Shown piece after piece: positions 18,623-27,345 of a DNA stretch of 58,320 nucleotides. The stretch is from Planctomycetales bacterium (GTDB taxonomy: Bacteria; Planctomycetota; Planctomycetia; Isosphaerales; Isosphaeraceae): assembly GCA_027449865.1 (NCBI GenBank), contig DAIDKV010000123.1, forward strand, positions 1 to 58,320. Reading direction: 5' to 3'. The notes under the pieces were generated by a model that was not told where the DNA came from, did not search any database, and worked only from the letters and a program-made list of their open reading frames with translations. The translations under genes were made by a program, and so were the position numbers. The stretch's first letter is position 1, and each line of letters begins with the position of its first letter.

Positions 18623-18735
18623 TCCGCCCCTCGGCGCGAGAATCTCGCCTTGCTCGATCCCTGGACCTGCGCCATGATCCGGACCAGGTCTTCCCGTTGA
18701 TCCGAATCGCCTCTCGTTCCTGGAGGATCGCGGCC

Positions 18736-20193
18736 ATGGCAGGCCAAGCCGGAACCCGATCGATATTCGTCGTCGCTCTGATTCTAGCTGTTGTCCCCGC
18801 CAGAGGCGCCGAGGCTCCCGAGCCGCCGAAGCTTCGGTTTGGGATCGCGCTTCAGGCGAAGCCCTCCCGGAATCATTTCCAGGATGTGGTGCAGAAGACG
18901 CCTGACCTCGTTCTGGTCGACGGCGCGAAGACGATCCGTCCCGAGCGGCCCGGGCTGATCTACCACATCGAGCGCGCCGAGGGGAATCGATACCTCGTCA
19001 CCCTCCCCGGACAGGGACTTTATGGGTGGGTCGATCGAGACGCGGTCATCCCGTACAGCGAGGCCGAGGGTTATTTCACCAACGAGCTGGAAATTGAGAA
19101 AGCGACGCCCTTCGGCTACCTGATGCGTGCCATCGTCTGCGAGGATAACGAGAGATTTCAGCGGTCATTTGCCGATCTCGCCGAGGCGCTCAAGCTCGAT
19201 CCGGGTTACGTTCCCGCGATGATCGAGCGTGCGATGCTCTGGGCGACGCGGAACCGGATGGACCTTGCCCTTCTGGATACCGAGCGAGCGATTCGAGCCG
19301 ATCCTCGGTCGTCCGAGGCTCGTCTGGAACGAGGCGTTTTCTACTTCAAGCTCAAGGATTACGGGAAGGCTCTCGCCGATCTCGACCGGGCGCGGGAACT
19401 GGGCTCTCGATCGATCCACGTTCCCATGGTTCGGGGTTCGATTTACGTCGAGCGCCGGCAAATCGACGATGCGATCCAGGCCTTTCAGGAGGCGGTCTCG
19501 ATTGACCCGAAAAACTATGATGCGCACCTGATGCTCGGCTCATCCTATCTTCTGCGGTCGCAGCCGCAGCGGGCCGTGCAGGCCTTTTCCGAGGCCGTGA
19601 AGCTTGAGCCGGAGAAGGGGTCGGGATATGGCGGGCGGGCGGTGGCGCGCATGGGCCTCGGTCAGCGGGAACTGGCCCTCGTCGATCTCAACCAGGCGAT
19701 CCGGTACGAGTCGATGCGTGCCGACCTGTTTCGGGATCGTGGGCAAATCCACGCGATGGAGGGTCGGTGGCCGCAGGCGATGGCCGACTTCGAGACGGCT
19801 CTCCGGGTCGATCCGAACGATGTCGAGGCGAACATCGTCCGGGCCTGGACGCTCGCGACCTGTCCCGACCAGCGCGTTCGGAACGGAGCCAGCGCCGTGG
19901 CCTCGGCCACGCGGGCCTGCGAGCTGACCCAGTGGAAATCGCCTCGGGCGCTGGCGACGCTCGCCGCGGCCTATGCGGAGTCGGGCGACTACACGGCCGC
20001 CGCCCAGATGCAGGGCAAGGCGATCGCCGTCACGCCGCCCGGAGATCCTGTTCTCGGTTACTACCAGGCCTCCCTCAATCGATACCGGTCCGGCAAGCCC
20101 TGGCACCGCGTCGGACTGCTCGAGGAGATCGGGCTCCATCGCCGGTCACCGGCCAAGCAGGATACCCAGGTTCAACAAACCCGGGGGAAATAA
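18736..20193 (+). CDS. Exported tetratricopeptide repeat protein
   Basis: A 485-residue protein with a signal peptide (1-24, 'SIFVVALILAVVPARGAEA'), an SH3-like N-terminal segment ('YLVTLPGQGLYGWVDRDAVI', about 80-110) and a long TPR solenoid (about 125-450). Repeats include 'RAIRADPRSSEARLERGVFY' and 'AFQEAVSIDPKNYDAHLMLG'. It probably scaffolds periplasmic complexes; no enzyme residues are seen. I chose the ATG at 18736, preceded by TGGAGG at good spacing, over a TTG at 18697. It converges with the DUF1501 gene across a hairpin-forming repeat region. Confidence 0.82.
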   Translation: MAGQAGTRSIFVVALILAVVPARGAEAPEPPKLRFGIALQAKPSRNHFQDVVQKTPDLVLVDGAKTIRPERPGLIYHIERAEGNRYLVTLPGQGLYGWVDRDAVIPYSEAEGYFTNELEIEKATPFGYLMRAIVCEDNERFQRSFADLAEALKLDPGYVPAMIERAMLWATRNRMDLALLDTERAIRADPRSSEARLERGVFYFKLKDYGKALADLDRARELGSRSIHVPMVRGSIYVERRQIDDAIQAFQEAVSIDPKNYDAHLMLGSSYLLRSQPQRAVQAFSEAVKLEPEKGSGYGGRAVARMGLGQRELALVDLNQAIRYESMRADLFRDRGQIHAMEGRWPQAMADFETALRVDPNDVEANIVRAWTLATCPDQRVRNGASAVASATRACELTQWKSPRALATLAAAYAESGDYTAAAQMQGKAIAVTPPGDPVLGYYQASLNRYRSGKPWHRVGLLEEIGLHRRSPAKQDTQVQQTRGK

Positions 20194-20444: not shown

Positions 20445-21815
20445 TCAGATCAGCTCGCGGATGGGTTCCTTCTCGTCGAGCAGGGTCATTGGACGGCCGC
20501 CGCGATCGGAGACGGCCGTGGCCGGGTCGATCCCCAGGTTGTGATAGAGCGTTGCGAAGACGTTCTGGAAAGAGACGGGGTGGTCGACCACGTAGGCGGC
20601 ATGCCGGTCGGTCGCGCCGATGACCTGTCCAGTCCGCATCCCGCCGCCGGCGAGAAGGGCACAGTTGACGGCGGGCCAGTGGTCGCGGCCGGCGTTCTTG
20701 TTGATGGTTGGCGTTCGGCCGAACTCGCCCCAGACGATCACCGAAACATCACGATCGAGCCCGCGGTCGTACAGGTCTTCCAGCAGGGCCGAGAGCGCCA
20801 TGTCGAGCTTTGGGATGCGGGTTCGGTTGGTCGAGAAGTTCCGAGAATGCGTGTCCCATCGGCCGAAGCCGAGGGTGACCACCCTGGCGCCGGCCTCGAC
20901 CAGTCGCCGGGCCATCAGGAACTGGTCCATCCAGGCGGGAGGGCCGTCGTTTTCGTGGACGTCGTTGCCTCCGCCGTATCGAGCACGGACCTTCGGGTCT
21001 TCGCGAGTGACGTCGAGGGCATCGTAAACCCGGCGGGAAGTTAAGACCTCGAAGGCCCGCTGGGTGAAGCTATCCATGCCTCGGACGGCGTCGTCGTTAT
21101 CGAAGGCGCGCCGGAATCCGTCGAGCTGGGCCAGGAGCGATCGGCGGCCGGCGAGTCGAGTGGCGTCGATGGCCGCGGCGTCGAGGTTGGCACCGCCACC
21201 GGCGGGAACGGATGGGCTCGTCCTCGACTCGGATCGGAAGGGCGTGAACGGCGCGTGGGCCAGTCCCAGGTAACCGGGATCGCCGGGATTCCCCCATCGG
21301 GGCTCGCCGGTCCGGGGCGAGAGGCCGACAAAGACCGGGACATCCGGATGCACGGGACCCTTCAATTGCGAGACCAGGGCGCCCAGGCTGGGCCGCCCGC
21401 CCTGGGCCTTGCTCACGAGGTCCTTGTAGCCGGTCAGGCACTGGCCGGCCGAATGGTCCGGACCGGCACCGACGATCGATCGGACGATCGCGAATCGGTC
21501 CATCATCCCCGCGAGCCGGGGCATGTGCTCGCAAATCTGGATTCCCGGCACACTGGTCGGGATTGGGCGGAACTCACCCCGGATGCCTTCCGGCGCATCG
21601 GGCTTCATGTCGAACATGTCCTGGTGGGGCGGACCCCCCGCCAGGAAGACCATGATCACCGCCTTGTGGGAGCGATGGAGGTTTGCACGGCTCTCGGCCT
21701 GCAACAATCCCGAGAAAGAGAGGCCGCCGAGGGCCAATCCCCCGACCTTCAGGAAGTCGCGCCGCGATACACCATCGCAGTAACCCGCTCGCGCCGGTCC
21801 GAAGAGGCTCAACAT
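20445..21815 (-). CDS. DUF1501 domain-containing protein (Tat-exported)
   Basis: A 456-residue protein with a twin-arginine signal ('SRRDFLKVGGLALGGLSFSG', about 17-36), so it should be exported folded. The body matches DUF1501 of the alkaline phosphatase/sulfatase-like superfamily: 'FLAGGPPHQDMFDMKPDAP', 'GMMDRFAIVRSI', 'WDTHSRNF' and 'IVWGEFGRTPTIN', with the terminal His-rich 'GRDHWP'. Enzyme activity is not established. In planctomycetes DUF1501 genes usually sit next to a cytochrome-domain DUF1549/DUF1553 gene, but none is adjacent here, so this is an orphan. The ATG at 21815 has a GGAAGG site and gives the Tat signal near the N-terminus. Confidence 0.9.
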   Translation of the reverse strand: MLSLFGPARAGYCDGVSRRDFLKVGGLALGGLSFSGLLQAESRANLHRSHKAVIMVFLAGGPPHQDMFDMKPDAPEGIRGEFRPIPTSVPGIQICEHMPRLAGMMDRFAIVRSIVGAGPDHSAGQCLTGYKDLVSKAQGGRPSLGALVSQLKGPVHPDVPVFVGLSPRTGEPRWGNPGDPGYLGLAHAPFTPFRSESRTSPSVPAGGGANLDAAAIDATRLAGRRSLLAQLDGFRRAFDNDDAVRGMDSFTQRAFEVLTSRRVYDALDVTREDPKVRARYGGGNDVHENDGPPAWMDQFLMARRLVEAGARVVTLGFGRWDTHSRNFSTNRTRIPKLDMALSALLEDLYDRGLDRDVSVIVWGEFGRTPTINKNAGRDHWPAVNCALLAGGGMRTGQVIGATDRHAAYVVDHPVSFQNVFATLYHNLGIDPATAVSDRGGRPMTLLDEKEPIRELI

Positions 21816-22292
21816 GCCGTTAGCCCTTCCTTCCCGCTGGACACCCGCTTCACGAGTGTTTAACAAGATTGTGCGCCCGGGACTGGTATCTGGCAAATGG
21901 GTGTCGGAAAGGCGTTGATTCCGGTCAACGTGACCTTACCGACGATGCCTCGTGGCATCGTGACCATTACCAAATTCCCGGCCGATCCCGGGGCCGGATC
22001 GATCGCACGACCGTCTTCTGATCGAAGGGGCCTCCCTGTCTCGGTCGGATACGAAGGCGGGCGCCTCGCGCATCACGATTTCTTCTTCATCGACACGGTT
22101 GGGGACCGGACTTGCTCCATAAAATTTCCAGGGCGCGGACGCCGATCGCGGCCCCCGCGGGTCGTCATCTCGGTTCTGGCACCATCGCCGCGGCGTCAGG
22201 TCGCGGCAAGGGAAGTGGAGGCCGGGATTGTCATGGCCTCCACTTCCATTCTACGCCCGAAACGGAAAATGGTTACACCGCCCTGTGAAGGC
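21816..22292. other. 477-bp intergenic region
   Basis: Between two minus-strand genes. A plus-strand frame (21897-22337) runs through it but shows no domain and overlaps the next gene antisense, so I do not call it. The only clear structure is the hairpin at 22211-22247. Promoters for the DUF1501 gene are expected here, but I see no convincing pair of boxes. Confidence 0.5.
22211..22247 (-). terminator. Hairpin downstream of CRTAC1 gene
   Basis: A perfect 13-bp inverted repeat (22211-22223 with 22235-22247) encloses an 11-nt loop. It lies 45 bp past the stop of the CRTAC1 gene on the minus strand. The tract after it is not T-rich, so it may stabilise the mRNA 3' end rather than act as a classical intrinsic terminator. 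Confidence 0.5.
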
Positions 22293-24083
22293 TCAGGGCG
22301 AGGACGGAGTCTCCTCGATCCGTATCACCTGGTTTGACTCCAGGTTCGATCGTTTTGTCTCCTTCCCCGACGGCCATCGAATCGTCAATTCGTCGACCCT
22401 TGACGCCGAACCGAGGCCGAAGGTGAGCGGAAACTCGACGGAGGAAAGGTAACTCTTGGAGGGGAAGAGCTGGCGATCGCAGGAAAGCTCGCCGGCCTTC
22501 AATTGCACTCTCGCGCCGATGGCGTCGCGGTTGGACTTCTTACCGTCTCCGATGAGGACCAGACGGAGCCAGTGGTTCCGGTGGCCGCCCTCGTTTCGGA
22601 AGAGATGCGGTGTGCCGTTATTGACGGTGATCAGGACATCAAGGTCACCGTCGTTATCAATATCGGCGTAGGTACAGCCACGGCCGACGATTGGCCGGAA
22701 CAGGTCGGGCCCAGCCTGCTCGGGGCCGACCATCGTGAAGAGCGTACGTCCGGGCCGACCCGAGTTCCAGAACAACTGGACCGGCTGCTCGTAATGCTCG
22801 CTGGCCTGAACGCGCGAGATCTCCGGTTCGAGATGTCCGTTGGCCGAGAGCAGGTCGAGCCGGCCGTCGAGGTCGTAGTCGAAGAAAAAGAGCCCGAACT
22901 TCAAAGGAGGCTGCGTCGGAGCCCCGAGGCCATAAACGTTGGCGAGGTCGGAGAAGACCATCGATTCGGGCTGATCGCAGACGTAAAGCGCGGTCATCTC
23001 GTTGGCGAAATTGCCGACGGCCAGGCCAAGGTGCTCGTCGTTGAGGAACGCGGCCCAGTCCACGCCCATGCCACCACGGGGTGAGCCGTTTGAGTCGAAC
23101 GCCACTCCGCAGAGGAGCGCCGTTTCCTCGAACTTCCCGCCGCCCCGGTTGTGGAAGAAGAAATTCTGGACCGTGTCGTTGGCGACCGCAATATCGACAA
23201 GACCGTCACCATCGACATCGTAGGGCGCGACGCCCAGCGACTTGCCGACCGGAACCTGGAGATCCGGTGTCCGGACCTGCACGCCCGAGGAGTCGCTGAT
23301 ATCCACGAAGCGTCCCCCGTCGTTCCGGAGGAGCGTGCAGAGCGAGCCGCGGAACGAGGCCGGAGGGCCATAGGCCCGGCCAACCCCCGTGAGCTGAAAG
23401 CCCTGCACCTTGTCAATCTCCGGCGACCAGGTGATGTAGCTGGCGATGAAAAGATCCAGATCTCCGTCGTTCTCGATGTCGAGAAAGGCGGCGCCGGTGA
23501 GCCAGGCATTTGGGCCGCCCGCGTTGGCATCGCGGGTTACCTCGTCGAAATGTCCCTTCCCGTCGTTGCGGAAGAGGTGTCCACCGCCGACGGCCGTGAC
23601 GAAGAGGTCGTCGTCGCCATCGTTGTCGTAATCGCCGATGGCGACACCCTGGCCATAGAAGGTCCGGTCGAGGCCGGCGGACTTCGTGACGTCCTCGAAG
23701 TGTCCCTTGCCGTCGTTCCGATAGAGGGCCTGGGTCGGCATGGGCTCGACCTTCCGGCCGGGCCAGGTCGACGAGTTGACGAGGAACAGGTCGGGATCGC
23801 CATCGCGGTCGTAATCGAAGAAGGCCGCGCCCGAGCCCATCGTTTCGGGGAGGAGCTTCTCGCCGGTCGCTCCATTGAAGTGCCGGAACGTGATGCCGGC
23901 TTCCTTCGTCACGTCCACGAATCGAACGTTCGGGATCGATGCCTGCCGGACCTCTTTCGGCCGGACCGGTGCCTCGGGCGCGGCCACCCGGGGCGGTTCC
24001 GGAGCTTTGCCGCATCCGCAGGAGGCGAGCCAGGGCAGGGCGGCAACCGCGAGGGCCGCGTATCGGGGGATTCTCGTGCTCAT
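22293..24083 (-). CDS. CRTAC1 family FG-GAP/ASPIC-UnbV lipoprotein
   Basis: A 596-residue exported protein with a lipoprotein signal ('AALPWLASCGCG', lipobox LASC). Multiple FG-GAP/VCBS calcium-binding blades follow, each with a D-x-D-G-D-x-D loop ('YDRDGDPDLFLVN', 'YDNDGDDDLFVTA', 'IENDGDLDLFIAS', 'IDNDGDLDVLITV'), forming a beta-propeller. The C-terminus is an ASPIC/UnbV domain ('SNRDAIGARVQLKAG' ... 'LTIRWPSGKE'). The role is probably surface or periplasmic binding; no enzyme activity is known. Its ATG overlaps the stop of the pentaheme cytochrome gene by 4 nt (ATGA), so the two are translationally coupled and likely work together at the outer face of the cytoplasmic membrane. Confidence 0.9.
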   Translation of the reverse strand: MSTRIPRYAALAVAALPWLASCGCGKAPEPPRVAAPEAPVRPKEVRQASIPNVRFVDVTKEAGITFRHFNGATGEKLLPETMGSGAAFFDYDRDGDPDLFLVNSSTWPGRKVEPMPTQALYRNDGKGHFEDVTKSAGLDRTFYGQGVAIGDYDNDGDDDLFVTAVGGGHLFRNDGKGHFDEVTRDANAGGPNAWLTGAAFLDIENDGDLDLFIASYITWSPEIDKVQGFQLTGVGRAYGPPASFRGSLCTLLRNDGGRFVDISDSSGVQVRTPDLQVPVGKSLGVAPYDVDGDGLVDIAVANDTVQNFFFHNRGGGKFEETALLCGVAFDSNGSPRGGMGVDWAAFLNDEHLGLAVGNFANEMTALYVCDQPESMVFSDLANVYGLGAPTQPPLKFGLFFFDYDLDGRLDLLSANGHLEPEISRVQASEHYEQPVQLFWNSGRPGRTLFTMVGPEQAGPDLFRPIVGRGCTYADIDNDGDLDVLITVNNGTPHLFRNEGGHRNHWLRLVLIGDGKKSNRDAIGARVQLKAGELSCDRQLFPSKSYLSSVEFPLTFGLGSASRVDELTIRWPSGKETKRSNLESNQVIRIEETPSSP

Positions 24084-27000
24084 GGTCGCGTCTCCGAAGC
24101 GGGCCGAGCGGGGGCGCCAAAGGCGACCTTCGCCGCGGGAGGATCGATCCCCGGCGCTCCGGGGCGATGGAGTGAATGGATCACGATCGATTGAGCGTTC
24201 TGGTTGGCGGCGGGATCTCGCTTCCGGGCCGAGGCGAAGGCCTGGCCCTCCGCGGTCTCGTCGGGCTTGAGGCGCTCGTGAAGCCGACGATGCGTCACTT
24301 CCAGAACGTGGGCCAGCTCGGCCCGGGTCGGCTCGTCGAGTTCGCGGTTCCAGACTGGTCCGAGCCTGGCGGCCATTTCGTGCAGCGGCTCGAGCCGAGA
24401 CTGATCCGTCGGTCGTGAGCCCTCCATGTAACCGATCACTCCCGAGGCGAGCCGACGCAAATCCCCAACGCGCTGGGCCAGATTCCCAGGGTCGAGACCG
24501 GCCAGCGAGTTGGCGAGGGAAACCAGATCCTCGGGCGACATGCGCTCGGCCGGCCCGGTGGTCGTCGCCGTTTTCCAGGTTGGATCGTGGTACGCCTGGG
24601 CCAGGCCGTAATGGGCCTCGACGTCCTCGGATTCGATGGTGAGCGTTCGCTGATAGGACGCGATCGAGCGCATCAGGTGATCGCGACGCTCGGGACTGCC
24701 GACCTTCTCCAGGCGGGCCCTCATGAAGAGCGCTCCGGCCAGCTCGTTGATGACCCGGAAATCGAGGCTGAGGTCAATCTTTCGCTCGGGAATACGCGTC
24801 TCCAGAACGGCCTGGAAGTTTCGAATGGCTTCATCGAGCATCGCGTTGCGTACGTTGATCTGCCCCGTTAGCCAGTTGATGACCCAGGGCGCCGGCGACT
24901 CTGGATGCGAGGCCGCCTTCTCCAGCGCGGCGAGAGCGTCGGGAATCCGGCCCTCCCTTTGATAGACCCGCGCGAGATTGATCCAGCCGTCGGCTCGGCC
25001 GAGATCGGCCACCTTGCGGAAAACCTCCTCGGCCTGCCTCAGCTCGCCCTTCTGGCCACCCTTTACCTGACCTTCGAGCAGGAGCCCAATCCCATAATCG
25101 TTCCACCGCTGCCACTCGGCCTCGATCGGCGAGGGCTTGTTCGTCGCCGAAGGCCCGCCCGCCACGCCGATCTTGACCGCGTCGCGAGCCATGACAACGA
25201 TCGGCAACTCCTGCCCCTTCCCCTTGCCGAAGACGTAATCCATGAAGATTCGATCGAACTTACGATAATTGACCTTTGCCTCCAGCTCGATCGGTCCCTT
25301 CAATCCAGCCGGCACTTCGAGCCCGAAATGGACGACCTGACCGGCACCAGGCGGGATCTGCTTGTTGTAGAGAGGAACGAAGATGTCCTGGGCGTTGCGG
25401 CGATCGATCCGATTACCGTGGCGATCGAGCATGTAGACATTGATAAAGTGAGCATAGGGATCAACGTAACCCTCGCCGTCGATCCCGCCCGCCCGACCGA
25501 TCACCTTTCCGTCGGATCGGGCCACCAGTTCGACCCAGATTTCGTTGGAATCGACGGTTCCCTGGCTGAAGAGGTGGCCGATGTTGAGGGTTCTCACGAC
25601 GACCTCGACGAGGTAGGGCTTCCCGGGCGTGAGGGTCGGCGAGGCGGGGCGAAGTGGGGCGATCAAGGCACCGTCGATCGCGCCGCCCTCGCGAAGACCA
25701 AAGAGATCGACTCTCACCTTCTGCTGGGCGAGGAAGCCGGCCTGGCGCGTGGCGGCCCCGGTGTCGCCAAACAGCGTGGGAAGCGCCGTGTTCGCTCCGA
25801 GGAAGAAGTGGTCGTGGATCTCTCGGCCTGGGCTGCCATCGAGATCGACGGCTCCAAAGTCGGTCGAGGGCTTCATCGCCATGTGGCACTCCGTGCAGGT
25901 CGTCTTCGCGACCTCCGGATAGTAGAAACTCTGCGCTCCGTGACCCGAAACCCCGGAGACCAGCCACGAGTCGTAATGATTCTGTCCGCGGACAAAATCC
26001 TTGTAGTGGTTGACACCGTAGGGAATGCCGACCTTGTGACAGGTCGAGCAAAACTCCGCGGTCTTGATCACGGGTTTGAGGAAGGTTTTCTTGTGCATCT
26101 CGGGCTTCGCCTTGACCAGCGTTTCGTTGATCCATTGCAGGACCGGATTCTTGCTGTTGGCGAACGGGTAATGCACAGGCTCTTCAATGGTGTAGGCCGC
26201 GTTGCCCCTGGTGTTGTTCACGGTGGTGATGGAGTGGCATCCGGTACAGGTGATGCCGGCCTGACCGGTCGGATCATTCACCATGTCAAAATTTGGGTCG
26301 TCGAATTTCCCTGAGAAGAAGGGGACGAGGTCGTGGCAGCCGGCGCACCATCGGGCGGCCTGTGTATTTCCGTCTCGCTCCATCGAGACCTTGCGGGTCT
26401 CCTGGATGGAGAAGAGATAGGGCTTGTTGTTGAACGAGCTCAGGTGATGAGCGGAATGAGACCAGCCGTCGTAGGCGTCCTTGTGGCACTTCAAACAGTA
26501 CTCGTCCATCATCAGCGTCTCGGCGGGGATGAAGTTGCCGGTTGCTGTGACGGCCTCGGAGGGATAGAAATACTTCTTCCCCTCCCGGGGACCCTGAACC
26601 CCGAACGCGCGGGGGTCGCCGCGATGCAGCAATCCCATGAGGATCACGAACCCAGCCACCGCGACACTGAATCGGCGGGCCCAGTGCCATCGGATCATCG
26701 GGCCGGCGAGCCTGTGCTTGACGTAGAGCCCGATCGCCACGATCGGAACCGCGACGTGGAGCCAGTAGCCGATCTCCCGGGCCATCGGATCGCGGATCTC
26801 AAATCCTCCGATCCGGACCAGTACGATCCCCGAGACCAGGATCACGATCCCGGCCGCGAGCAGCGCCAGGCCGTAGCGGACGGCCGTGCGATTGGGACGC
26901 CGCCATGAGGTCAGCAGGTGGACCACACCGAAGGCGACAAACGGCACGATGATCAGAAATCCAAGAAACAGGTGCAAAAGCACCATGAGCATATAGAAGA

Positions 27001-27184
27001 ACGTTTGCTGAGTTGTGCCGAGATACCAGGTCAGTGCCGTAACGCTGGCGAGATAGACGCCGTTGGCGCCCAGTACGGCGAAAGCGATCAGGACGGACCA
27101 GAGCAGGGGACGCAGGCGGGGGCCGATGGCGGGAGTGTAGGCCCTCCCGCGGCGGTCCTTCATCGGTCGGACCTCGGATGCCAT
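24080..27184 (-). CDS. Membrane pentaheme c-type cytochrome with TPR domain
   Basis: A 1034-residue protein combining three modules. First are about five transmembrane helices (about 25-190) with His residues in helices 2 and 4 (LLHLFLG, GVVHLL, YWLHVAV, LYVKHRL) that could ligate b-type hemes. Next is a periplasmic cytochrome domain with five CxxCH motifs at about residues 230 (CLKCH), 280 (CAGCH), 313 (CTGCH), 379 (CSTCH) and 430 (CTECH), plus distal His candidates. Last is a TPR solenoid (about 700-860). The cytochrome part resembles cytochrome c554-type proteins. It probably passes electrons from the quinone pool to an extracytoplasmic partner; the donor and acceptor are unknown. Candidate starts are GTG 27199, ATG 27184 (preceded by TGGAG, chosen) and ATG 27163. 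It is coupled to the CRTAC1 gene. Confidence 0.82.
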   Translation of the reverse strand: MASEVRPMKDRRGRAYTPAIGPRLRPLLWSVLIAFAVLGANGVYLASVTALTWYLGTTQQTFFYMLMVLLHLFLGFLIIVPFVAFGVVHLLTSWRRPNRTAVRYGLALLAAGIVILVSGIVLVRIGGFEIRDPMAREIGYWLHVAVPIVAIGLYVKHRLAGPMIRWHWARRFSVAVAGFVILMGLLHRGDPRAFGVQGPREGKKYFYPSEAVTATGNFIPAETLMMDEYCLKCHKDAYDGWSHSAHHLSSFNNKPYLFSIQETRKVSMERDGNTQAARWCAGCHDLVPFFSGKFDDPNFDMVNDPTGQAGITCTGCHSITTVNNTRGNAAYTIEEPVHYPFANSKNPVLQWINETLVKAKPEMHKKTFLKPVIKTAEFCSTCHKVGIPYGVNHYKDFVRGQNHYDSWLVSGVSGHGAQSFYYPEVAKTTCTECHMAMKPSTDFGAVDLDGSPGREIHDHFFLGANTALPTLFGDTGAATRQAGFLAQQKVRVDLFGLREGGAIDGALIAPLRPASPTLTPGKPYLVEVVVRTLNIGHLFSQGTVDSNEIWVELVARSDGKVIGRAGGIDGEGYVDPYAHFINVYMLDRHGNRIDRRNAQDIFVPLYNKQIPPGAGQVVHFGLEVPAGLKGPIELEAKVNYRKFDRIFMDYVFGKGKGQELPIVVMARDAVKIGVAGGPSATNKPSPIEAEWQRWNDYGIGLLLEGQVKGGQKGELRQAEEVFRKVADLGRADGWINLARVYQREGRIPDALAALEKAASHPESPAPWVINWLTGQINVRNAMLDEAIRNFQAVLETRIPERKIDLSLDFRVINELAGALFMRARLEKVGSPERRDHLMRSIASYQRTLTIESEDVEAHYGLAQAYHDPTWKTATTTGPAERMSPEDLVSLANSLAGLDPGNLAQRVGDLRRLASGVIGYMEGSRPTDQSRLEPLHEMAARLGPVWNRELDEPTRAELAHVLEVTHRRLHERLKPDETAEGQAFASARKRDPAANQNAQSIVIHSLHRPGAPGIDPPAAKVAFGAPARPASETRP

Positions 27185-27345
27185 GAACGGACGCTCCACT
27201 ACGAACCCGATCGGTCAGTCGATCGGGCGAACAGGGTAGGAATTGAGCAAGATAAAAGATGAAGCGACGACAAGAGTGCGCGACCGGGTCGGCTGAATTG
27301 GCCGAACCGGCGTGGGTTCAGGTCGAGGGGATCGAGGCAGTCCGA

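Follow-up and report, generated by a model that had tools for sequence, protein, structure and literature searches.

Among pentaheme cytochromes, the PHC family includes Thermochromatium tepidum c552, ExtKL, Gsu2801 and cytochromes of cable bacteria, and the cable-bacteria members have been listed as potentially catalytic owing to a pentacoordinate heme (PMC11976967). Another type of system is represented by CbcL of Geobacter sulfurreducens, an inner-membrane quinone oxidoreductase with six transmembrane (TM) helices and nine c hemes (PMC9129911). CRTAC1 genes stand beside multiheme cytochrome genes in the hydrazine-synthase-like clusters of non-anammox bacteria (PMC12758564).

Here we describe a two-gene locus from a member of the Planctomycetales, in which a membrane domain with predicted b hemes, five c-type heme motifs, an Ig-like domain and a TPR solenoid lie in one chain, and the gene for this chain is followed directly by one for a CRTAC1-type lipoprotein. 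The reading that we favour, and consider fairly probable, is that the pair forms an inner-membrane complex for electron transfer between quinone and the periplasm, made up of a b2c5 cytochrome and a periplasmic CRTAC1 partner. The features lie within a stretch of 58,320 nucleotides (the window, meaning the whole stretch that was analysed) and are given below; residues of the cytochrome are numbered from the GTG at 27199, and numbers counted from the ATG at 27184 are lower by 5.

24080..27184, minus strand: gene of the putative b2c5-TPR cytochrome (open reading frame and translation; ATG at 27184, alternative start GTG at 27199)
26627..27112, minus strand: five-TM membrane domain, residues 30-191, a predicted di-heme b cytochrome (AlphaFold2 model of the domain alone, fold neighbours, positive-inside loops)
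26972..26974, minus strand: H76, TM2, periplasmic side, predicted heme b ligand (invariant in near and far homologs)
26918..26920, minus strand: H94, TM2, cytoplasmic side, predicted heme b ligand (invariant in near and far homologs)
26756..26758, minus strand: H148, TM4, periplasmic side, predicted heme b ligand (invariant in near and far homologs)
26714..26716, minus strand: H162, TM4, cytoplasmic side, predicted heme b ligand (invariant in near and far homologs)
25760..26527, minus strand: pentaheme c domain, residues 225-480 (Pfam Cytochrome_C554, 9.5e-6; model compared with 5ze8)
26483..26497, minus strand: first CxxCH, CLKCH, C235-H239 (translation, alignment)
26333..26347, minus strand: second CxxCH, CAGCH, C285-H289 (translation, alignment)
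26234..26248, minus strand: third CxxCH, CTGCH, C318-H322 (translation, alignment)
26036..26050, minus strand: fourth CxxCH, CSTCH, C384-H388 (translation, alignment)
25883..25897, minus strand: fifth CxxCH, CTECH, C435-H439 (translation, alignment)
25160..25732, minus strand: Ig-like beta-sandwich, residues ~490-680 (AlphaFold2 strands; collinear with 5ze8 35-435)
24200..25117, minus strand: TPR solenoid, residues ~695-1000 (Pfam TPR matches, AlphaFold2 helices, Z up to 15.3 against TPR chains)
24080..24083, minus strand: ATGA overlap of the cytochrome stop and the CRTAC1 ATG (sequence)
22293..24083, minus strand: gene of a CRTAC1-type FG-GAP/ASPIC-UnbV lipoprotein (domain matches; lipobox LASC, Cys at residue 22)

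Counted from the GTG, the cytochrome reading frame occupies 24080-27199 on the minus strand (1039 aa); from the ATG, which has a GGAG 9 nt on its 5' side, the protein has about 1034 aa. The AlphaFold2 (AF2) model of the whole cytochrome, made with 77 homologs (pLDDT 87.5, pTM 0.85), runs from five long N-terminal helices through a helical heme domain and a beta-sandwich to a TPR solenoid. An earlier, sequence-only reading of this DNA had placed about five membrane helices, five CxxCH motifs and a TPR solenoid in a single chain, and this anatomy proved correct: AF2 predicts five helices of membrane-spanning length, the CxxCH motifs number five (C235-H239 to C435-H439 in the list), and the solenoid is covered by both Pfam TPR profiles and AF2 helices over residues ~695-1000. 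One domain had been overlooked, namely the Ig-like beta-sandwich between the hemes and the TPR. Whole-chain Foldseek matches in the PDB to complement C3b and to TPR proteins had TM scores of about 0.1 and were discarded as not meaningful.

The five helices of the membrane domain are predicted at residues 30-60, 67-98, 104-127, 138-164 and 171-191, and the domain modelled alone by AF2 has a pLDDT of 91.8. Four of its histidines, which had been singled out as suggestively placed and which homologs were expected to align, do so throughout: H76, H94, H148 and H162 are kept in 80/80 close homologs covering the region and in 12/12 distant homologs (~30% identity overall), the latter taken from other families of the same phylum by a genome search. 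Across 86 membrane domains, with identity down to 18%, the only invariant columns are H76, G80, H94, G110, G124, H148, H162 and R163; that four of the domain's six histidines fall among these eight columns has a hypergeometric p of 2e-5. A suggestion that the distant homologs lack the membrane domain, as their profile matches began at ~207-230, was wrong, the domain being present with all four histidines. The loop charges (+3.3 at the N-terminus, then -0.2, +2.5, +0.1, +3.4, and 0 after TM5) indicate, by the positive-inside rule, that the heme domain faces the periplasm.

Cytochromes b and b6 carry two histidines in each of two parallel helices, and the helix between these has two glycines 14 residues apart. 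Bundles of the cytochrome b/b6 and b561 types (7r0w, 5oc0, 1kqf_C) share with the present domain the bundle fold, two histidines in TM2, two in TM4 and a Gly-x13-Gly in TM3, but the window protein has no recognisable sequence match to them, and the TM2 histidines are spaced by 18 here versus 14 in classic cytochrome b. The fold neighbours of the modelled domain are mostly di-heme b proteins at Z 8-10.9, including cytochrome b6 (10.9), E. coli superoxide oxidase (10.2), FDH-N gamma (9.8), Hyd-1 cytochrome b (9.5), bc1 cytochrome b and NOX5, with 1kqf_C as the top Foldseek match (prob 1.00); since helical bundles can reach a Z of about 10 through shared arrangement alone, the fold supports rather than proves a di-heme b identity, and the conservation of the histidines is the stronger evidence. 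On this evidence the domain is predicted to be a di-heme b-type module. Distant members come near to PF01292 (b561), the best value being 1.6e-6 (28.5 bits in one member, against a cut-off of 30.1); no member reaches the cut-off, and the membrane part of the window protein has no Pfam match. Weak Pfam matches of membrane segments (DUF7139, DUF3040 and others) were set aside as generic helix similarity by their look, and a membrane-domain profile searched against PDB sequences gave nothing credible.

The c-type heme motifs are equally stable: five CxxCH are found in 79/81 close sequences (the other two being truncated by the contig or having four) and in 12/12 distant ones. The AF2 model of residues 225-677 superimposes on residues 35-435 of T. 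tepidum c552 (5ze8) with Z 13.8 and rmsd 3.6 over 337 residues, and a weak but independent sequence match links the heme region to 5ze8 (E 8e-4). By model and sequence comparison, the heme and Ig region is assigned to the PHC family, with which (c552, ExtKL, Gsu2801, and the cable-bacteria sPHC and lPHC) it shares the placement of an Ig-like domain C-terminal to five c hemes. Outside the CxxCH motifs, the only histidines of this region that are invariant in near and far homologs are four (251, 369, 464 and 542), one below the heme count; four candidate distal histidines are compatible with one open heme, which might be catalytic.

A predicted di-heme b-type domain fused to five c hemes is probably linked to quinone. 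The genome also has genes for four COX1-type oxidases, a cytochrome b of the bc1 type and NrfD proteins of the Alternative-Complex-III type, so that oxygen respiration follows an ordinary chain. The cytochrome module would add to this chain and is therefore not an obvious part of an anaerobic respiration; replacement of complex III by the module was dropped as an explanation because the genome has the bc1-type and NrfD-type proteins. Given this chain, a further supply of electrons to the quinone pool would be of use, and electrons might run in reverse, the pentaheme domain (with CRTAC1) oxidising a periplasmic substrate or scavenging reactive species and passing electrons through the b hemes to the pool. 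E. coli superoxide oxidase acts so with superoxide, and the membrane domain resembles it (5oc0, Z 10.2, rmsd 3.4), although 5oc0 is only one among many matching di-heme bundles; CRTAC1 genes also flank multiheme genes of the hydrazine-synthase-like type (PMC12758564). The sequence itself does not fix which way electrons flow, and we regard reverse flow as unlikely. The PHC relative c552 is said, in a 2019 title by Chen et al., to be a low-potential cytochrome, which suits a quinol-driven reductase at least equally.

The second protein of the pair contains FG-GAP_3 (PF13517, 4.4e-34) and UnbV_ASPIC (PF07593, 1.6e-19) domains behind its LASC lipobox, and the overlap at 24083-24080 probably couples its translation to that of the cytochrome; in these respects the tie to a CRTAC1 lipoprotein described in the sequence-only reading stands. 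The gene is also the conserved neighbour that it had been supposed to be. Testable loci, those with at least 800 bases downstream, number 65 and come from several phyla; in 53 of them CRTAC1 immediately follows the cytochrome on its strand, 14 times with the ATGA overlap. In 393 genomes of the same phylum, 83 of the 109 cytochrome copies have CRTAC1 within 1.5 kb. Among the 65 loci, non-adjacent cases include one convergent CRTAC1 and one ~2 kb away, and in 11 of the 12 genomes of non-adjacent loci an ortholog (49-57%) lies elsewhere in the genome (in two, nearby). All-against-all comparison of 80 loci yielded CRTAC1 as the only conserved neighbour. Of the 107 genomes that carry the cytochrome, 89 have an ortholog at E<=1e-125, versus 5 of the 286 that lack it (Fisher p 5e-63, a value that ignores phylogeny), an association that is strong even where the genes are unlinked; the 18 apparent misses fall mostly in one family, where one detected member sits right at the threshold.

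It might be argued that CRTAC1 is merely co-transcribed and functionally separate, the cytochrome acting alone, for CRTAC1-like proteins are plentiful and CRTAC1 is not next to every copy of the cytochrome. The window's genome has 16 UnbV places and 10 Cytochrome_C554 places, and only at this locus do both share a contig. The partner, however, belongs to a single, specific ortholog group with ~50% identity between phyla; this group stands apart from the paralogs (those of the window's genome reach 43% or less over full length) and is kept when unlinked, and we give functional separation a very low probability. For a distant subgroup (L089, L091 and L092), no CRTAC1 was seen in the 2-3 kb read downstream, and the four membrane histidines and five CxxCH are kept; in this subgroup CRTAC1 may not be obligatory.

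Some further arrangements were observed around these genes. At L013:10888-14250 and L026:11017-14370, near the cytochrome locus, TPR and FG-GAP domains are fused in one protein, which hints at a joint role of TPR and CRTAC1 domains. The CRTAC1 gene adjoining the cytochrome at L030:5449-7417 is apparently split into two overlapping frames (a frameshift or an assembly error). Beyond CRTAC1 in the window are a DUF1501 protein with a Tat-like signal (20445-21896, minus strand) and a TPR protein (18697-20193, plus strand); DUF1501-like proteins are near the pair also in L006 and L047, and this is not general. Elsewhere in the same genome, a COX1-type oxidase (C148:13802-15058) and a CRTAC1-like protein of 989 aa (C148:19734-21299) are ~5 kb apart on one contig.

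As to where the partner sits, the CRTAC1 N-terminus carries a lipobox-like Cys throughout the window's own family, the window included, and in nearly all other readable loci an acidic xxDDAxIGxAxxxS lead followed by one uncleaved TM helix. This exchange of a lipid for a TM helix is most simply explained if CRTAC1 is a periplasmic protein of the inner membrane, and it argues against a propeller at the cell surface. The sequence-only reading had proposed a quinol-linked conduit docked to a surface propeller, perhaps for extracellular electron transfer; of this, the predicted di-heme b module fused to five c hemes and the CRTAC1 partnership are supported, and the surface location and extracellular role are not. 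An extracellular conduit would agree with the lipoprotein nature of the window's CRTAC1 and with the PHC relatives ExtKL and cable-bacteria cytochromes, proposed for extracellular electron transfer or conduction (PMC11976967). Yet CRTAC1 is TM-anchored in most relatives, neither an outer-membrane porin nor an outer-membrane multiheme partner is a conserved neighbour in the 80 loci, and the organism's oxygen respiratory chain is ordinary, so that such a conduit appears quite improbable.

The cytochrome is single-copy in its own genome and present in 39/45 genomes of the same family, and relatives are found in Verrucomicrobia, Acidobacteria, Latescibacterota and gammaproteobacterial MAGs; the carriers are many bacteria, mostly not known as metal breathers. 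Many of the homolog matches in genomes of the phylum (G216, G285 and G080 among them) have a single stop listed within the matched profile, which probably falls ahead of the true start or beyond the C-terminus.

Under the favoured reading of an inner-membrane complex, two b hemes, one per membrane face, would be ligated by H76 with H148 and by H94 with H162, and the five-helix domain would exchange electrons with the quinone pool. Electrons would go on to the five c hemes of the PHC-type domain in the periplasm, where the Ig-like domain and the TPR solenoid would hold the CRTAC1 propeller; this, fixed in the same membrane compartment via its lipid or TM helix, would be a docking or substrate-recognition partner. 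The likely direction would be from quinol to a periplasmic acceptor. More tentatively, and with considerable doubt, the b2c5 cytochrome could be a widespread unrecognised respiratory module, a periplasmic enzyme whose substrate a CRTAC1 propeller selects; if true, these CRTAC1 proteins would serve as subunits of redox enzymes and not in adhesion or as matrix proteins. The tie to the cytochrome gives the CRTAC1 family, which is without known molecular function, a concrete and testable partner.

No description of the fusion (predicted b-heme membrane domain, PHC, Ig and TPR) was found in an open-access library; several systems share parts of it. Known PHC members are, in the accessible part of their account, c-type cytochromes of the periplasm that have neither a b-heme membrane domain nor TPR nor a CRTAC1 partner (PMC11976967), whereas here the PHC fold continues from a membrane domain that probably reacts with quinone, the two being fused directly. 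CbcL likewise fuses a di-heme b membrane domain to a periplasmic multiheme c domain (PMC9129911); the present protein falls outside the CbcL type, with five helices and five PHC-type hemes, plus Ig, TPR and CRTAC1. In extracellular conduits of the Mtr/PCC type, the locus encodes an outer-membrane porin together with multiheme partners of the outer membrane, neither of which is conserved among the neighbours in our 80 loci. The hydrazine-synthase-like clusters contain different cytochromes, and a b-heme domain is not reported in the available part of their description (PMC12758564). Human CRTAC1 (9etn) and bacterial ASPIC/UnbV proteins have, like the window's protein, an FG-GAP propeller plus an ASPIC/UnbV domain (phmmer E 6e-13); in contrast to human CRTAC1, the bacterial protein described here is tethered to a membrane and linked genetically with a cytochrome.
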